Below are positions 471 through 9,558 of a DNA stretch of 64,000 nucleotides, piece after piece (the stretch's first letter is position 1; every line of letters starts with the position of its first letter). The notes under the pieces are model-generated. The model saw only the letters and a program-made list of their open reading frames with translations, did not search any database and was not told where the DNA came from. This stretch comes from Variovorax sp. (lineage in GTDB: Bacteria; Pseudomonadota; Gammaproteobacteria; Burkholderiales; Burkholderiaceae_C). Where the stretch lies: the NCBI GenBank assembly GCA_004210915.1, contig SEGS01000004.1, positions 1 through 64,000 of the forward strand. The letters run 5' to 3'. Made by a program: the position numbers and the translations under genes.

Positions 471-2108
471 TCAGGGCTTGCGGGCCAACGCCATAAAGGC
501 GCGATTCAGCGACGCTTCCGCTTCGATCAGTTGGGACCGCCGCGCCTTGACCCATGCCTGATCGCGCGCCAGCGATGCACTGGATGCCGCCAGCATCCGG
601 CGCACCTCCGCAGGTTGGGGTCCTCCCGTTCCGGTGCGAGTGCGAACCATGGTCACGGGCGACAGCGTGGCGCGGAAGGTGGCCTCATCCAGCGGTAGTG
701 CCGCCTGCTCCGTCTGGTACTTCTGTCCGGCCTCGGCATAGATGCGCTGCGCTTGCGCGTACGGAAAGTCCTTGGGCCGCAGGTTCTGGCTGCGCGCGTA
801 CACCACGATCTCCGACGCGAAATGGTGACCGACGCGGAACGGCACGCCGTGCAAGCGCTGCAGTGTTTCGGCCAGCTCCATCGAAGTGATCCAGTCGGAC
901 TCTAGTTCCTCCAGCGCGCGTGCCGGGTCAATCTGGAGAGCGCCCAGCACGCCATCGAGCTGCTGCAGCATCTCGACGCCCAGCACGAAGGTCTTGGCGC
1001 CCGCGGCGCTGGCCGTGTTCTTGTAGTCGATCATGCCCGGCGTCACGTTGTGCGCGCGCAGCGTCACCGCCTGCGCCGAAGCCACCACGTCGGTGGCCTT
1101 GGCCCGCGTGTTCTGGATCACGCCGGGATTCGCTTTCTGCGGCATGGCGCTGCTGGTGTAGGTATTGCTGGCGCCCAGCAGCATCCAGGGGCGGGTCTGG
1201 TGGTACTGCACATGCACGTCCTGCAGGAAGGCGCCGACCCGGATGGCGGTAGAGCTCGCGATGGCCGTGGCCTCCAGCGGAATGTCGTAGGTGCTGATCT
1301 GGCCCGCGTCCAGGGAGTTGACGACCACACCGTCAAAGCCGAGAAGCGCAGCGAGGCGTTCGCGGTTGACCGACCAGCTGGAGTTGGACAGTACCGCGGT
1401 GCCCATAGGGCTGAGGTTCAGCCGCGCGTAGGCCTCGCGAATGCGCGTGGCATCGCGCTCGAAGGAGTCGGCGAAGGCCAGCAGGTAGTGCGCGTAGCTG
1501 ATTGGCATGGCCTGCACGCCGTTGGTGTACGCGGGCACGTAGGTGTCCACGTGCTTGCCGGCCAGATCGATCAGCCGCTTGCGCACGGCATCCAGCGCAT
1601 CGGCATAGTCCAGCACTTCCAGTCGCAGCTGCGCGGCGTTCAGCGTCGAATGGATGTCCTGCCGGCTGCGGCCGGTGTGGATCAGCGTGCCTTCGGGACC
1701 GACCTGGTCGGTGATGATCTTCTCGACCTGCAGCACGTCGGTGGGCCGCTTGCCGCCGGGCTGGGCGGCTTGGTCGATGGAGTGGCTGACGCCGCGGGCA
1801 ATGCGCCCGGCCCGCGGCGCGGGAATGATGCCCTGCTCGGCATGCACCACGGTTGACGCCATGTTGATGCGGCCGAACCAATAGAAGACGTCCTGCTGCT
1901 TCGCGAGGGCACTCGTTGCCTCGCCCTTCACTGTGCCCTGAATGCGGGCAACCTGTGCCTGGCATTCCTGGGTCGTGCGGCAGGCGGTGTCGAGGGTATC
2001 GGCGGCTCTCGCGGCGCCGATGCACGCCAGCAGGCTGGCGGTGAGCATGAACGAGGTGGGCAGGCGCAACGCGCCAGAGGGCCGCGCGGCCGAGTTGAAG
2101 GCTTTCAT
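471..2108 (-). CDS. exported argininosuccinate-lyase-like protein
   Basis: A 545-residue member of the fumarase/aspartase/argininosuccinate lyase superfamily. Two family signatures are visible: TGRSRQD at about residues 145-151, and SSAMPQKANP at about 319-328, which carries the serine used as catalytic base in this family. Unlike housekeeping ArgH it begins with a signal peptide, with probable cleavage after ARA near residue 36, so it should act in the periplasm. The start at 2108 has GGAG upstream and gives a clean signal sequence. The family's TH-L-Q-x-A-Q-P motif reads TNGVQAMP at about 195-202, so by eye the conserved His is Asn. It is divergent from a LysR-Bug gene pair, which suggests a carboxylate substrate rather than arginine synthesis. 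Confidence 0.75.
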   Translation of the reverse strand: MKAFNSAARPSGALRLPTSFMLTASLLACIGAARAADTLDTACRTTQECQAQVARIQGTVKGEATSALAKQQDVFYWFGRINMASTVVHAEQGIIPAPRAGRIARGVSHSIDQAAQPGGKRPTDVLQVEKIITDQVGPEGTLIHTGRSRQDIHSTLNAAQLRLEVLDYADALDAVRKRLIDLAGKHVDTYVPAYTNGVQAMPISYAHYLLAFADSFERDATRIREAYARLNLSPMGTAVLSNSSWSVNRERLAALLGFDGVVVNSLDAGQISTYDIPLEATAIASSTAIRVGAFLQDVHVQYHQTRPWMLLGASNTYTSSAMPQKANPGVIQNTRAKATDVVASAQAVTLRAHNVTPGMIDYKNTASAAGAKTFVLGVEMLQQLDGVLGALQIDPARALEELESDWITSMELAETLQRLHGVPFRVGHHFASEIVVYARSQNLRPKDFPYAQAQRIYAEAGQKYQTEQAALPLDEATFRATLSPVTMVRTRTGTGGPQPAEVRRMLAASSASLARDQAWVKARRSQLIEAEASLNRAFMALARKP

Positions 2109-2154
2109 GAATCTGTCTCCGGTGTGTGTACGCTCCGGCCGACTTGGCACAGGG

Positions 2155-2272
2155 AGCTATTGGTTTTTCAGATGGAGATCAGATGGCTCCATCGTCGGAG
2201 GGTGAGTTTTAGGGCTGCGAGCAGCAGCGTCAAATTCATTTATCCTGATCTGTATTCAACAAACCAATAGCT
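2155..2272. promoter_or_regulatory. perfect 12-bp inverted repeat spanning a divergent promoter
   Basis: AGCTATTGGTTT at 2155-2166 is repeated exactly inverted as AAACCAATAGCT at 2261-2272. The arms are 94 bases apart, and the right arm ends 4 bases before the LysR start. The pair brackets the whole control region between the lyase-like gene and the LysR gene. A looped operator for the LysR protein is an inference. Confidence 0.5.
2171..2193. promoter_or_regulatory. candidate LysR operator, 7-bp inverted repeat
   Basis: GATGGAG at 2171-2177 and CTCCATC at 2187-2193 are perfect inverted arms with a 9-base spacer. They lie inside the divergent promoter region between the lyase-like gene and the LysR gene. 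The size and position suit a LysR-type binding site. Confidence 0.4.
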
Positions 2273-2276
2273 TGCC

Positions 2277-3212
2277 GTGTCCCCTGACCGCCTTTTCGCC
2301 CGCCTTGTCGGGCGCGCACGAATCAAGCACTTGCAGTTGGTGGTCGATATCGCCGAGTTGCAAAGCCTGCAGAAGGCGGCATCGGCGTTGGGTTTGAGTC
2401 AGCCAGCCGCCACGCAGGCGTTGGCGGAATTCGAGTCTGTCCTGGGCGCGCCGTTGTTCGAGCGTCACGCCCGTGGCATGCGGCCTTCGGCGCTGGGCGT
2501 CGCGCTGCTGCCCCTGGTTCGGAACGCCCTGCGGCAGATGCAAGCTTGCGCCCACACGGTGGTGGCGTTGCGGGGCGACGCGCGCGGGCTGGTGCGCATC
2601 GGCGCCATTGCTGCAGCCATCGCCGGTTGGTTGACGTCTGCGCTGCCGCCCTTTGCTGTCGCGCATCCGGACATCGCGCTCGACATCCAGGAGTTCACGG
2701 CTGACGACATCCTCGGCTTTATCGAGAACGACAGGGTTGATCTGCTGCTGTGCCGGGAGCCGGCTTCCCTGCCCGACAGTCACGTGTTTATGCCCGTGCT
2801 CGATGATCGCTTCGTGGTCGTGGCGCGTGCGGGCCACCCGCTCGCGGCGCTGGACGCCGTGCCCGATCGGTTGCTGGCCGCGCACACCTGGCTCACGCCT
2901 CCGCTGACAGGCATCGCGCCGCGTGAGTTCGCGGAACTGTTTGCGCGGCTGGGCGGAACGCCGTCAACATGCCAGATGTCCACACGCTCGGTGCTTCTGG
3001 CGGACGCCCTCATGAGTCGCAGCGACATGTTGGCGCTCACGCCTTTCAACCTGATCCGGCCTTTGGTCGAGCAGGGGCGCATCGTCGTCATTCGCACGCG
3101 TGCGGTGTCGCTGGCACCGCTGGGTATCCTGGTGCGCCGGGAAACCACACTGCAGGCTTCCTCGGCCGTTGCGCGAACGATTCAAGGACTTCGGGAATGG
3201 GCGCCGGTGTAA
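2277..3212 (+). CDS. LysR-family transcriptional regulator
   Basis: 311 residues, the usual LysR length. An N-terminal winged helix-turn-helix (about residues 18-75, with LQKAASALGLSQPAATQAL) is followed by a LysR substrate-binding domain. The start is GTG with no strong ribosome site; an inverted-repeat arm lies immediately upstream, so autoregulation is plausible. It is divergent from the exported lyase-like gene, and its last bases overlap the start of the Bug receptor. It therefore most likely controls both, with the effector being the lyase's substrate or product. Confidence 0.85.
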   Translation: MSPDRLFARLVGRARIKHLQLVVDIAELQSLQKAASALGLSQPAATQALAEFESVLGAPLFERHARGMRPSALGVALLPLVRNALRQMQACAHTVVALRGDARGLVRIGAIAAAIAGWLTSALPPFAVAHPDIALDIQEFTADDILGFIENDRVDLLLCREPASLPDSHVFMPVLDDRFVVVARAGHPLAALDAVPDRLLAAHTWLTPPLTGIAPREFAELFARLGGTPSTCQMSTRSVLLADALMSRSDMLALTPFNLIRPLVEQGRIVVIRTRAVSLAPLGILVRRETTLQASSAVARTIQGLREWAPV

Positions 3213-4213
3213 CGAACCCGGTGCCTCCGCAAGAAAAGTGCAGCAGCCGCCGGTCGTTTCTGCTCACCCTCGGCGCATCCGGCGTGGCCCGCATGGGCCC
3301 GGTGTACGCGGAACTTGCTTTTCCACAGCGCCCCCTGACCCTCGTCGTTCCCTACGCGGCAGGTGGCGAGGCCGACGTCACGGCGCGCCGCATGGCCGTC
3401 GCGTTGGCACGGCAGCTGGCACAGCCGGTGATCGTGGAGAACATGGCCGGCGCGTCGGGTGGCTTGGCGGCGCGACGGGTGCTGCGGGCCAAAGCGGATG
3501 GCTACACCTTGATGTTCGGTACGACCAGCGATCTGGTGGTTGCGCCTGCGGTGAACCCGCAACTGGGCTACCAGAGCTCCGATTTCTCTTTGATCGCGAT
3601 GTACGGCCATGCGCCCATGGCGCTGGTGGTGCGCGTCGGCCTCGGCGTGCAGAGCATCGACGCCTTCATCGACGAAGCGCGGCGTCAGCCGGGGCGACTC
3701 TCCATGGGCGCAACGGGTCGACAGTCGTTCCAGGCGCTGGCGGCGCAGAGTCTCGCTCGAGCGGCTGGCGTTCAACTGCTGCATGTGCCCTATCAGAAGG
3801 GGACCCAGTTGATGCATGACCTGTCGAGCGGGCGCATCGATGCCGTGGTGGTGCCCCTGCCCGCGGCCCTCCACCAGGCCCGGCAATGGGGGCACATCGT
3901 GGTGGGCACGCTGTCGAATGCACGGAGCCTGGCCAGCCCTGACACGCCCACGGTCAACGAAGGAAGGTCGCTCAAAGGTGTTGTGTCCGAGATCTGGGCT
4001 GGCCTGGTCGCGCCCGCAGGTCTGGCGCAAGAGGTAATGGCATCGCTGCATCGCGCTGTGCAGGCGCTGCTGGTCGATCCTGCATTTCACGTGCTGAGGA
4101 TGCGGCTGGCCGATGTGCCTGCCCCGCCGATGTCGGCGGCGGAATTCGCTCGGTTCGTGCAGGCTGAGGAATCCCGCATGCGTGACATCGTGCGTCAGTT
4201 GCCGCTGGCGTAG
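3197..4213 (+). CDS. TctC/Bug-family solute receptor with Tat-type signal
   Basis: 338 residues of the tripartite tricarboxylate transporter receptor family, periplasmic proteins that bind small carboxylates. Family features include PLTLVVPYAAGGEADVTAR after the signal, then LLHVPYQKGTQ and an SGRIDAVV segment. The signal has a twin-arginine motif, SSRRSFLLTLG with RR at 18-19, rather than the usual Sec signal. The start at 3197 overlaps the LysR stop by 16 bases, so translation is probably coupled. No TctA or TctB membrane subunits lie nearby, so it is an orphan receptor serving a transporter elsewhere or a sensing role. Confidence 0.85.
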   Translation: MGAGVTNPVPPQEKCSSRRSFLLTLGASGVARMGPVYAELAFPQRPLTLVVPYAAGGEADVTARRMAVALARQLAQPVIVENMAGASGGLAARRVLRAKADGYTLMFGTTSDLVVAPAVNPQLGYQSSDFSLIAMYGHAPMALVVRVGLGVQSIDAFIDEARRQPGRLSMGATGRQSFQALAAQSLARAAGVQLLHVPYQKGTQLMHDLSSGRIDAVVVPLPAALHQARQWGHIVVGTLSNARSLASPDTPTVNEGRSLKGVVSEIWAGLVAPAGLAQEVMASLHRAVQALLVDPAFHVLRMRLADVPAPPMSAAEFARFVQAEESRMRDIVRQLPLA

Positions 4214-4228
4214 AACCCAACCGACCCG

Positions 4229-5026
4229 ATGCCCGACGCACTCATTTCTGCTGCGCCCCGCCGACGCGGATCGCGCTGGGTGCGTTGGGCTCTGGCGTTC
4301 TTGTGCCTGCTTGCGTTGCTGATGCTCGGCCCGCTGGGCGTCCTGGCATTCGGCAACCTGGACCTGAACACGCCATGGCACATGACGCGTCGCGAGAGCA
4401 CCGGGCAGGCGCACGACCCGTCCGTCGAGCGCGGAGCGGTTGTGCAGGTCTATGGCGCGCGGATCGTGCGATGGCGCGGCGCCTTCGGCATCCATCCGTG
4501 GATCGCGGTCAAGCGGGCCGGGGCCGAGCGGTACACCACGTATGACATCGTCGGCTGGCGTGCCCGCCGCGGCGGGGATGCGATGGTCAGCAACGAGGTG
4601 GAAGCACCGGACATGCTCTGGTACGGCGCCCATCCGCAACTGCTGGCCGACCACCGGGGTCCGCAGGCCGAAGCCATGATCGACGCGATCGAATCGGCCG
4701 TGGCGGCTTACCCGTGGCGCGGGTCGTACCGCCTTTGGCCCGGCCCCAACAGCAATACCTTCGTGGCCTGGGTGGCCCGGCAGGTGCCTGCGCTGCGGCT
4801 GGATCTGCCCCCCACGGCCATCGGCAAGGACTATCTGGGCTTGACCACGTTCAGTGCCCCTGCGCCCAGCGGCACGGGGTGGCAGCTGTCGCTGGCGGGG
4901 CTTGCGGGCGTCACGGTGGCCCGCGACGAGGGTCTGGAACTGAACCTGCTGGGCCTCGGCTTCGACGTCGACGATCGGGCCCTTCGGCTGCCGGGGTTCG
5001 GCCGGCTGCCAGAGCGCGCGCGATGA
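4229..5026 (+). CDS. DUF3750 family protein
   Basis: 265 residues. A basic N-terminus is followed by one membrane segment (about 19-42); the rest should face the periplasm. The motif WPGPNSNTF and the nearby YPWRGSYRLW resemble the DUF3750 family, whose function is unknown. The spacing after the Bug receptor stop is 15 bases, so it could be co-transcribed, although it has no obvious link to carboxylate uptake. Family assignment is from memory of the motif. Confidence 0.65.
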   Translation: MPDALISAAPRRRGSRWVRWALAFLCLLALLMLGPLGVLAFGNLDLNTPWHMTRRESTGQAHDPSVERGAVVQVYGARIVRWRGAFGIHPWIAVKRAGAERYTTYDIVGWRARRGGDAMVSNEVEAPDMLWYGAHPQLLADHRGPQAEAMIDAIESAVAAYPWRGSYRLWPGPNSNTFVAWVARQVPALRLDLPPTAIGKDYLGLTTFSAPAPSGTGWQLSLAGLAGVTVARDEGLELNLLGLGFDVDDRALRLPGFGRLPERAR

Positions 5027-7209: not shown

Positions 7210-8004
7210 CTAGCGCATGCCTTCCGAAGGTGCGGTCGGCCGGCTCGCCAGGTGGCGCGCAAGCGCCCCCGTCGCGCGCGCAGCGGCTTCCGCATCGACG
7301 CGGTCGGACAGCACTTGGGTCACCTGATTCAGCTGGCCGCCCGTCAGGCCCACGTTCATGCTGATGGCCATGTGCGATTGCAGTTGCGAGTCCGCGCCTT
7401 TCAGCGCCGAGAGCATGCCGACCGTGGCGAGCTCGCGACTCTGCCAGTCGAAGTTGTCGCGCTCGAAGATGTCTCCGAAAAGGTGGGTCTTCAGATATTC
7501 ATCCGCAGCAGGCGCGAAGTCGAAGAGCGCACCTTTCACCGGGCTCCCGACGAGCTTCGTCTGGTTGGCCGTGCCGGCCGCCAGCAGCGCGTCGCCTCTT
7601 GGAATCGCGCGCGTGGGGGCGCGTCCTTCTGCATCCTGCTTGCCGCGCTGCTTGCGCGCCTCGACCACCTTCATCAGCTCGCCCAACGCGTTCAGGCTGC
7701 GGGGGAAACCGGCGTAGGCATACAACTGGGTCAGGACTTCCTTGGCCTCATTGATTGTCAGACCGGCGTCGAGTCCCTGCTCCAGCGCCGGGCCCAGGCG
7801 TGCCATGTCGCCGGCCGCTCCATGGGCTGCGATCGGAACGATGGCCTGCTGCCGGATCGACAAGGTTTCCGAGGGAAGCTGTGCCTGGGCCCGAGCAGTG
7901 GCAACGGGCGTCGTCGAGGTGGCGTTGCCCCAACTGGCGGCCAGCGCGAGTACCAGGCCGGCCGCGACACGCCCGTGCCGCTCAACGTGCTGTGTATTGC
8001 TCAT
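7210..8004 (-). CDS. exported carboxymuconolactone decarboxylase family protein
   Basis: 264 residues with a signal peptide and two tandem CMD/AhpD-like helical domains (about 60-125 and 170-255). Motifs include [23 protein letters not shown] and [24 protein letters not shown]. It lacks the CxxC pair of true AhpD peroxidases, so a decarboxylase-like or other role is likelier. The ATG at 8004 is preferred over a GTG three bases earlier. It overlaps the end of the cupin gene by 23 bases, so the two are coupled and probably act on the same compound in the periplasm. Confidence 0.75.
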
Positions 8005-8470
8005 CACTGACCTTCTCCATCCATTCCACGTTCTTGCCGTCGAGCGTGCCCGTGACCGCCAGGTGGGTCATGCCGGTTGTCGGCGAGGCGCCGTGCCAGT
8101 GCTTCACGCCCGGTGGGCACCACACGACGTCGCCCGGACGGAATTCCTGGACGGGCTTGCCCCATTGCTGGGTGCGGCCCACGCCCGACACGATGACCAA
8201 TTGCTGGCCCGCAGGGTGGGTGTGCCATGCCGAGCGCGCGCCAGGCTCAAAGGTGACGTGGGCACCCGACGTGTTGATGTGCTGGTTCGCGCTCCAAACC
8301 GGGTCCACGCGCACGCGACCGGTGAAGAACGCGTCGGGGCCGGCAGCAGACGGCTGCGCGCCCGCCCGGGTGATCTGCATGTCCGCGCCAGCCGCGGATG
8401 CCTGAGCCCCCGCAGCCATGGGCTGGGCGATCACCAGGCACGTGAGGATCGGGGATAGATAGCGACGCAA
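7982..8470 (-). CDS. exported cupin-domain protein
   Basis: 162 residues. A signal peptide ([23 protein letters not shown]) leads into one cupin barrel. Metal-site motifs: [10 protein letters not shown] (HxH, with Gln where the family often has Glu) and [10 protein letters not shown]. The start is inferred as TTG at 8470, because AGGAG lies 9 bases upstream and a proper signal peptide follows; longer frames give no signal. It is the first gene of a cupin-CMD pair, a pairing seen in many soil bacteria. It is divergent from a LysR gene that probably controls it. Confidence 0.7.
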
Positions 8471-8610
8471 GGTTCGGAACTCCTGGTGGGTGGATTGAAC
8501 GGGAGACGGGGATGTACCGAGTGGCGTCCCGCGTCTGGAACCACAAGTGGCTCTGCATGCAAAGAACTTTATGGCCGAGGCCTTTGGATGAGAAGACGGC
8601 AAAATCGGCA

Positions 8611-8622
8611 TGCACATGTGCA
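8611..8622. promoter_or_regulatory. perfect 12-bp palindrome upstream of a LysR gene
   Basis: TGCACATGTGCA is self-complementary and ends 12 bases before the LysR start. A related TGCATGCA lies at 8554-8561. Both fall in the divergent cupin/LysR control region and are candidate operators. Confidence 0.4.
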
Positions 8623-8634
8623 AATGATTCACCA

Positions 8635-9558
8635 ATGGCCAAAGAGAACCTGAACGACCTGCAAGCCTTCGTGGTGGTCGCGCGCGAGCGCAGCTTCACA
8701 CGTGCGGCGGCGCAGATGGGTATCTCGCGCTCGGCGTTGAGCCACGCGATGCTGGCGCTCGAAGCCCGGCTGGGCGTTCGCCTGCTCACGCGCACGACGC
8801 GAAGCGTCTCCACCACCGAAGCCGGTGCGCGGCTGCTCGACACCGTGGCGCCACGCCTGCAGGAGATCGAAGCAGAGCTCGGGCAGCTCAGCGCCATGCG
8901 CGACACGCCTGCCGGCACCGTGCGCATCACCGCACATGACCATGCCATCAACGCCGTGCTTTGGCCGCGCCTGCTGCCCCTGCTGCAGAAGTACCCTGAC
9001 ATCCGGATCGAGTTCAGCGTCGACTACGCCTTCACCGACATCGCATCTCAGCGCTTCGATGCGGGGGTGCGTGTCGGCGACCGCGTCGACAAGGACATGG
9101 TCGCCGTGCGCATCGCGCCGGACATGCGCATGGCGGTGGCCGCTTCGCCTGCCTACCTGGAGGGCCGGCCAGTGCCCAAAAAGCCCCAGGACCTGACCAC
9201 GCACCAGTGTGTGAACCTGCGGCTGCCAACCCGCGGCAATCTGTATGCGTGGGACTTCCAGAAAGGCAGGAAAGCCCTCAACGTGAAGGTGGATGGCCAG
9301 ACCGTGTTCAACAGCACGATGCTGATGCTGCAGGCGGCCATCGACGGCATGGGCTTCGCCTACGTGCCCTTCGACGTCATGCGGCCGCACATCGATGCCG
9401 GCAGGCTGGTTCCGGTGCTGGAAGACTGGTGGCCGACCTTTCCGGGCTATCACCTCTACTACGCGAACCGGCGCCAGATCGCGCCGGCTTTGGCGCTGGT
9501 GGTCGAGGCGTTGCGCTACCGCGCGCCCGAGCGGGCTAAGGCTGGCGCGACGCGCTGA
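8635..9558 (+). CDS. LysR-family regulator of the cupin/CMD pair (inferred)
   Basis: 307 residues: an N-terminal HTH ([19 protein letters not shown], about 21-39) and a LysR effector domain of the group that includes DmlR-like regulators ([29 protein letters not shown]). The start at 8635 gives the standard LysR N-terminus. It is divergent from the exported cupin/CMD genes. Its last 23 bases overlap the 3' end of an oppositely oriented paralogous LysR gene. Confidence 0.85.

Follow-up and report, generated by a model that had tools for sequence, protein, structure and literature searches.

A gene at one end of the stretch of Variovorax sp. DNA analyzed here (the window, 64,000 nucleotides of GenBank contig SEGS01000004.1) encodes P0001, which is probably a fumarate-releasing periplasmic lyase and a member of an extracytoplasmic subfamily that is distinct within the argininosuccinate lyase (ASL) superfamily. 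ASL-family enzymes are generally regarded as cytoplasmic; the P0001 subfamily, judged by its sequences, is almost certainly exported. The family, the clade, the signal peptide, the depletion of cysteine, the residue changes, and the neighboring genes are read from the sequence itself, and they show the subfamily to be real and widespread, within a superfamily that is already known. The window belongs to contig C94 of an assembly of 4.16 Mb in 139 contigs, and the nearest named relatives of the lyase, among the best 80 of 123 relatives found in a search of genome contigs, are from Variovorax.

Predicted Export of P0001 and Its Relatives

P0001 (545 residues) is encoded on the minus strand at positions 474–2108, with an ATG start codon at 2108, within an open reading frame (ORF) spanning 471–2150. 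Its two Pfam domains, Lyase_1 (5e-25) and ASL_C2 (3.9e-8), both score above the curated cut-offs. An earlier note on this DNA had proposed that an ASL-family protein here carries a signal peptide, and this is confirmed by the N-terminus of P0001, MKAFNSAARPSGALRLPTSFMLTASLLACIGAARA followed by AD, which comprises a charged n-region, a hydrophobic core, and an AxA cleavage site, features that are also present in relatives. The features of the gene are as follows.

471–2108, minus strand: predicted exported ASL-superfamily protein P0001, with the stop codon at 471–473 (ORF, Pfam, structure match)
2004–2108, minus strand: predicted signal peptide, residues 1–35, with an ARA cleavage motif (sequence, heuristic, family conservation)
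1962–1982, minus strand: Cys43-x5-Cys49, the sole two cysteines of mature P0001 (sequence)
1656–1673, minus strand: GRSRQD motif, residues 146–151 (alignment)
1521–1523, minus strand: Asn196, replacing the loop histidine of ArgH (alignment, 57/57 in the clade)
1125–1157, minus strand: TSSAMPQKANP signature loop (alignment, 72/72 for Ser319, Ser320, Lys325, and Asn327)
1020–1052, minus strand: HNVTPGMIDYK loop, specific to the subfamily, with H353, N354, G358, M359, and D361 in 72/72 (alignment)

Relatives were gathered in two sets: set A comprises 81 loci (the window and the best 80 of the 123 relatives), and set B comprises 40 further stretches from other relatives and the source genome, two of which (L184 and L185) repeat L040 and L039 of set A. 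A maximum-likelihood tree built after dereplication at 90% places P0001 in a clade (ultrafast bootstrap 100) whose 57 dereplicated members come from Burkholderiales, Pseudomonas, and other taxa, beside a sister clade of 15 proteins (ultrafast bootstrap 93), and the combined group of 72 again has an ultrafast bootstrap of 100. Ethylenediaminedisuccinate (EDDS) lyase, ArgH, and the proteins of L020 and L021 all fall outside this group, and the latter two were excluded from the 72 for that reason. The first tree retained one ArgH after dereplication, and five were used in a repeat tree.

Signals were called with heuristics of our own, of which the stricter requires a net positive charge and the looser allows zero charge and non-ATG starts. 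The stricter version is positive for 76 of the 81 set A loci and misses L044, L058, L060, L103, and L107; for at least L107, the called start seems to be internal. Within the dereplicated clade, 51 of 57 members carry a signal (50 by the looser script, L123 by eye); the same script was positive in one of the 15 sister proteins (L140), where the match lies upstream of the likely start and was set aside. The predicted signal is thus retained by homologs, and is a trait of the P0001 family and not a chance occurrence. On its contig C102, the source genome encodes one more paralog with a signal, which is 44% identical to P0001 in one alignment (A1) and 47% identical in another comparison.

Cysteine content follows the same division. 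No cysteine occurs in the core (residue 75 onward) of 48 of the 51 signal-bearing members; the core holds 3–6 cysteines in all six signal-less members, 1–7 in all 15 sister proteins, and 2–6 in the ArgH stretches of 17/17 relatives. This depletion is an independent mark of the predicted compartment. A cysteine pair like Cys43/Cys49 is found in 36 of the 51 signal-bearing dereplicated members, and in P0001 the pair may form a disulfide. The six signal-less members occupy as many as three separate positions in the tree, and export has therefore probably been lost again in them.

Among sampled genomes, a search with alignment A1 at an E value of 1e-110 found members of the group, sister-clade proteins included, in 33 of 300 for the order, 4 of 299 for the phylum, and 14 of 81 for the genus. 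At 1e-150, members were found in 15 of 117 genomes from the genus of G442, a genome related to that of the window only at the level of the phylum; the G442 protein (L259, contig C52) has a signal-like N-terminus by eye. Its gene stands beside homospermidine-synthase-, RidA-, and ornithine-decarboxylase-like genes, and an MgtC-like gene lies near L259 and in Advenella loci, all of these being assignments by eye. For the NCBIfam models listed for P0001, the group falls below every curated family cut-off.

Active Site

An AlphaFold2 model of P0001 computed from the 18 rows of alignment A1 has a predicted local distance difference test score (pLDDT) of 80.3 and a predicted template modeling score (pTM) of 0.82. 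In a Foldseek search of the PDB, EDDS lyase entries take ranks 1–4 (E values of 4.7e-24 to 1.3e-23, 26% identity for the top match), and E. coli ASL follows with an E value of 1.9e-19.

The TSSAMPQKANP segment of P0001 is the signature loop of the superfamily, with its serine pair, lysine, and asparagine in place, and His144, Arg147, Ser148, Thr195, Ser319, Ser320, Lys325, and Asn327 are kept in all 72 aligned proteins; the predicted fumarate side of the active site is intact. Gln150 is present in 72/72, whereas EDDS lyase and the single ArgH of the alignment have Asn at this place. The catalytic-loop position is Asn in all 57 clade members and His in all 15 sister proteins. In a subclade of 14 of the 72 proteins, which includes L006 and the source-genome paralog, Arg149 is replaced by Ser and Gln199 by Ala, which suggests a second substrate class.

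Gene Neighborhood

The genes that adjoin the lyase in the window, together with the region between them, are listed below.

2109–2276, between the divergent genes: intergenic region with presumed LysR-controlled promoters (layout)
2277–3212, plus strand: LysR-type regulator with HTH_1 and LysR_substrate domains (Pfam)
3197–4213, plus strand: TctC/Bug solute-binding protein (PF03401)
3245–3262, plus strand: SRRSFL twin-arginine motif of the Bug protein (sequence)

The LysR gene is divergent from the lyase gene and overlaps the Bug gene by 16 bases, as the earlier note had described. The best NCBIfam match of the LysR protein is PcaQ (121.7 bits, under the cut-off of 303.8), and the Bug protein belongs to the TctC family (PF03401 at 2e-50, 172.3 bits against a cut-off of 27). 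Its N-terminal SSRRSFLLTL precedes a hydrophobic stretch, and this motif predicts export by the twin-arginine (Tat) pathway. The earlier note took such a signal on a Bug protein to be unusual, which is wrong for this genome: an RR-x-hydrophobic pattern occurs in 28 of the 50 TctC N-termini, or about 26 after two were discounted by eye, and only six TctA genes accompany the 50 TctC genes in the 4.16 Mb, so that TctC proteins with a Tat motif and orphan TctC genes are both common in the source genome. Among TctC proteins encoded near the lyases of other loci, the motif, judged by eye, is present in L040 and L116 and absent from L087 and L258. Directly downstream of the Bug gene lies a gene for a DUF3750 protein (4229–5026; PF12570, 172.7 bits). 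At 7210–8635 on the minus strand, two adjacent ORFs with hydrophobic N-termini encode a carboxymuconolactone-decarboxylase-like protein and a cupin (families assigned by eye); the pair resembles exported versions of usually cytoplasmic enzymes and adjoins a LysR-like gene at about 8635–9558.

A conserved linkage of lyase, LysR, and TctC genes did not hold up. Among the loci examined, the divergent LysR–TctC layout of the window recurs only in the two copies (L039 and L040) in Variovorax sp. UMC13, and a widely conserved three-gene unit is rejected. In L116, the divergent LysR gene is present and TctC lies about 1.3–1.5 kb away on the other side, past a second LysR gene; in L258, whose lyase is 69% identical, a TctC-like gene (by eye) is directly upstream without that LysR gene; in L041 (the same as L257), neither a divergent LysR gene nor TctC stands beside the lyase.

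The neighbors in the window may be there partly by chance, with the LysR protein controlling the lyase and the Bug gene belonging to another pathway or being an orphan, an explanation that falls somewhat short of an even chance. The excess of TctC over TctA genes in the source genome is consistent with it, as are the nine loci titled Acidovorax, in which LysR adjoins the lyase and no TctC was seen. On the other side, TctC lies within about 1.5 kb of the lyase in five of the six genus loci with a close relative of P0001 (the window, L039, L040, L116, and, by eye, L258, the exception being L041), and in 10 of 15 sister-clade loci (L172–L183 and L186–L188) it lies within 1.8 kb. For the source genome, with its 50 TctC genes in 4.16 Mb, we estimate that about 7% of genes would have a TctC gene at such a distance by chance. 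The earlier note had proposed a periplasmic lyase acting on a substrate that the receptor also binds; the exported ASL-family protein stands, and the odds that the Bug protein serves the same pathway as the lyase are about even.

Neighbor families across the two sets were sought on all stop-to-stop ORFs, the ends of which overstate closeness on the upstream side (e.g., L186 at -1365), and the gene lists that were read by eye contain some miscalled frames. In set A, an SDF/DctA-like symporter gene lies within 0.8 kb of the lyase and convergent with it in 31 of 81 loci, all of them among the 40 titled Pseudomonas or Stutzerimonas, and in 24 of 81 loci an OprD porin gene precedes the lyase on the same strand by less than 100 bp (representatives score 222 bits for SDF and 495 bits for OprD). 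The surroundings of this Pseudomonas set vary, with secDF-type, SCO1-type, and porin/TonB-type genes recognized by eye; the OprD–lyase–symporter set therefore looks like a unit. LysR genes occur within the flanks of 58 of the 81 loci. A cysteine synthase gene is found in five, and in four of these, all from Advenella (L098, L106, L112, and L113), it lies 52–164 bp upstream of the predicted exported lyase, on the same strand; the L098 protein scores above the TIGR01139 cut-off.

In set B, 6 of 40 loci have a DcuC gene at -33 to +20 bp, and these are the six signal-less members (L161, L169, L170, and L171 themselves, L132, which is the gene of L164, and L136, which is the gene of L168). TctC is present within the stretches of 18 of the 40, in 15 of them within 1.8 kb; a porin gene lies 6–28 bp upstream in L165–L167, and a TRAP receptor gene stands beside L151. 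Flavocytochrome-type genes occur in 3 of the 40 loci. In L159 and L163, from genomes of 2.2–2.5 Mb, genes of the flavocytochrome c type (TIGR01813 above the cut-off) lie near relatives predicted to be exported, which would fit fumarate respiration. In two distant loci, L060 (3577–5447) and L116 (9096–10930), the predicted exported lyase has in its vicinity a TctC gene and, after it, an alpha/beta-hydrolase-like gene (by eye). The carboxylate context suggested in the earlier note thus recurs, in that a DctA-like symporter, DcuC, TctC, or a TRAP receptor is encoded beside members; the exact layout of the window recurs only in UMC13.

Proposed Function and Alternative Explanations

From these features, we infer the catalysis, the fumarate product, the uptake route, the regulation, and the role of the Bug protein. 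P0001 would be secreted to the periplasm and fold there as an ASL-type lyase, cleaving a substituted succinate into fumarate and a leaving group. The substrate would most likely be an N-(1,2-dicarboxyethyl) amine, and an S- or O-succinyl compound is also possible. The DctA-like, DcuC, and TctC neighbors point to fumarate, which would be taken up by a C4-dicarboxylate carrier: in pseudomonads by the DctA-like symporter whose gene adjoins that of the lyase, in the secondarily cytoplasmic relatives by the adjacent DcuC, and elsewhere by carriers whose genes lie away from the lyase. The substrate would enter through porins, which in some lines are encoded upstream. In the window, the LysR protein would presumably sense the substrate or product and control the lyase, and the Bug protein would presumably capture the same substrate or product.

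Several observations count against a fumarate-releasing periplasmic lyase with this uptake route. The DctA-like representative scores 320.9 bits, under the DctA cut-off of 513, and only 8 of the 81 set A loci have a TctC gene within 1.8 kb. None of the carriers scanned for was found in many of the set A Burkholderiales loci; no SDF gene adjoins the lyase in the window, and the only one in the genome is on another contig. Because of common ancestry among the Pseudomonas loci, and among several of the sister-clade loci, the counts are not independent. Three signal-bearing members retain core cysteines (1, 2, and 2). Finally, the loop histidine is replaced by Asn196 in the P0001 clade; this residue of ArgH corresponds to His162 of delta-2 crystallin, and the H162N variant of the duck protein is reportedly inactive.

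The earlier note had named EDDS-like aminopolycarboxylates as possible substrates, and P0001 might accordingly be an exported lyase for an EDDS- or iminodisuccinate-like compound, with the Bug protein binding the chelator. EDDS lyase is its closest solved structure by sequence and fold, and the residues listed near the substrate of that enzyme, R112, N113, Q159, N288, D290, and Y320 (PMC12363623), align to R149, Q150, N196, N327, G329, and M359 of P0001. R112 and N288 are kept, but N113, Q159, D290, and Y320 are replaced, leaving this substrate unsupported at the residue level; EDDS lyase lies outside the 72-member clade, and no chelator-oxidation genes were recognized in the neighbor lists, which were read by eye and may contain miscalls. 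P0001 is rejected as an EDDS lyase proper on these replacements, and the broader chelator explanation is unlikely. As most of the EDDS-pocket residues are not kept, the leaving group is unlikely to be arginine or anything like ethylenediamine, as far as an alignment at about 26% identity allows.

Another explanation of comparably low probability is an enzyme of the S-(2-succino) lyase type, an activity that is known, which would free fumarate and a thiol in a sulfur-scavenging route. The four Advenella cysteine synthase genes and, in L060, a Sox-like gene set that follows the lyase (by eye) are consistent with such a route, but sulfur-related neighbors are limited to a few loci. Less probable still is a periplasmic pseudoenzyme whose ASL fold binds a carboxylate and, after the change from His to Asn (in 57/57, on the same branch as export), no longer cleaves it, since the other listed signature residues are invariant in 72/72 (save Arg149, which is Ser in 14), EDDS lyase is active with Gln159 at the place of the loop histidine, and C4-acid carriers are encoded beside many members.

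For a fumarate-releasing periplasmic lyase, a single history can be sketched, which seems to us as likely to be right as wrong: one subfamily of C–X lyases would have moved once from the cytoplasm to the periplasm, losing the loop histidine and the core cysteines, with some lines returning (signal lost, cysteines regained, DcuC alongside), and the porin, lyase, and C4-dicarboxylate carrier would serve the extracytoplasmic harvesting of fumarate from a common environmental substituted succinate, by enzymes probably named argininosuccinate lyase in databases. If this is true, identifying the substrate would bring to light a nutrient broken open by these bacteria beyond their inner membrane, and the clade would be a natural experiment in which an enzyme changes compartment with matching changes in its cysteines and catalytic loop, in places reverting.

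Comparison with Known Systems

P0001 shares the Lyase_1 and ASL_C2 domains and the signature loop with ArgH. In contrast to ArgH, it scores 195.9 bits against TIGR00838, for which the equivalog cut-off is 279.5; it has Asn in place of the loop histidine and Gln in place of the Asn of GRSRND, and its signal peptide and depletion of cysteine predict a location other than the cytoplasm expected of ArgH. A plain ArgH duplicate is rejected, as the ArgH cut-off is missed and P0001 belongs to another clade. XcbC of coenzyme M synthesis and PRK06705 are further relatives in the superfamily (165.9 and 158.1 bits for P0001, NCBIfam), but both scores are far under the respective cut-offs of 575 and 883.

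A literature search on exported ASL, its substrates, and the Pseudomonas gene set, covering open-licence papers only, found no study of exported ASL as such; one paper bore on export (PMC11533796) and one on the EDDS pocket (PMC12363623). Three "argininosuccinate lyases" of Achromobacter xylosoxidans have been listed as putative Tat substrates and, by liquid chromatography–tandem mass spectrometry, as expressed in the periplasm (PMC11533796). According to the authors, cytosolic contamination affected all of their samples, and the three are assigned no specific function. These proteins are predicted to use the Tat pathway, whereas the RR pattern matched none of the 81 set A lyase proteins, and they are candidate members of the present clade by description.

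The nearest solved structure to P0001, in both sequence and fold, is EDDS lyase from Chelativorans sp. BNC1 (PDB 6g3d, 6g3e, 6g3i, and others). It differs in its placement outside the clade, in the four replaced residues of its pocket, and in sharing only about 26% identity, and it has in common with P0001 the ASL-superfamily fold and equivalents of Ser280, Ser281, Lys286, Asn288, Thr158, and Arg112.

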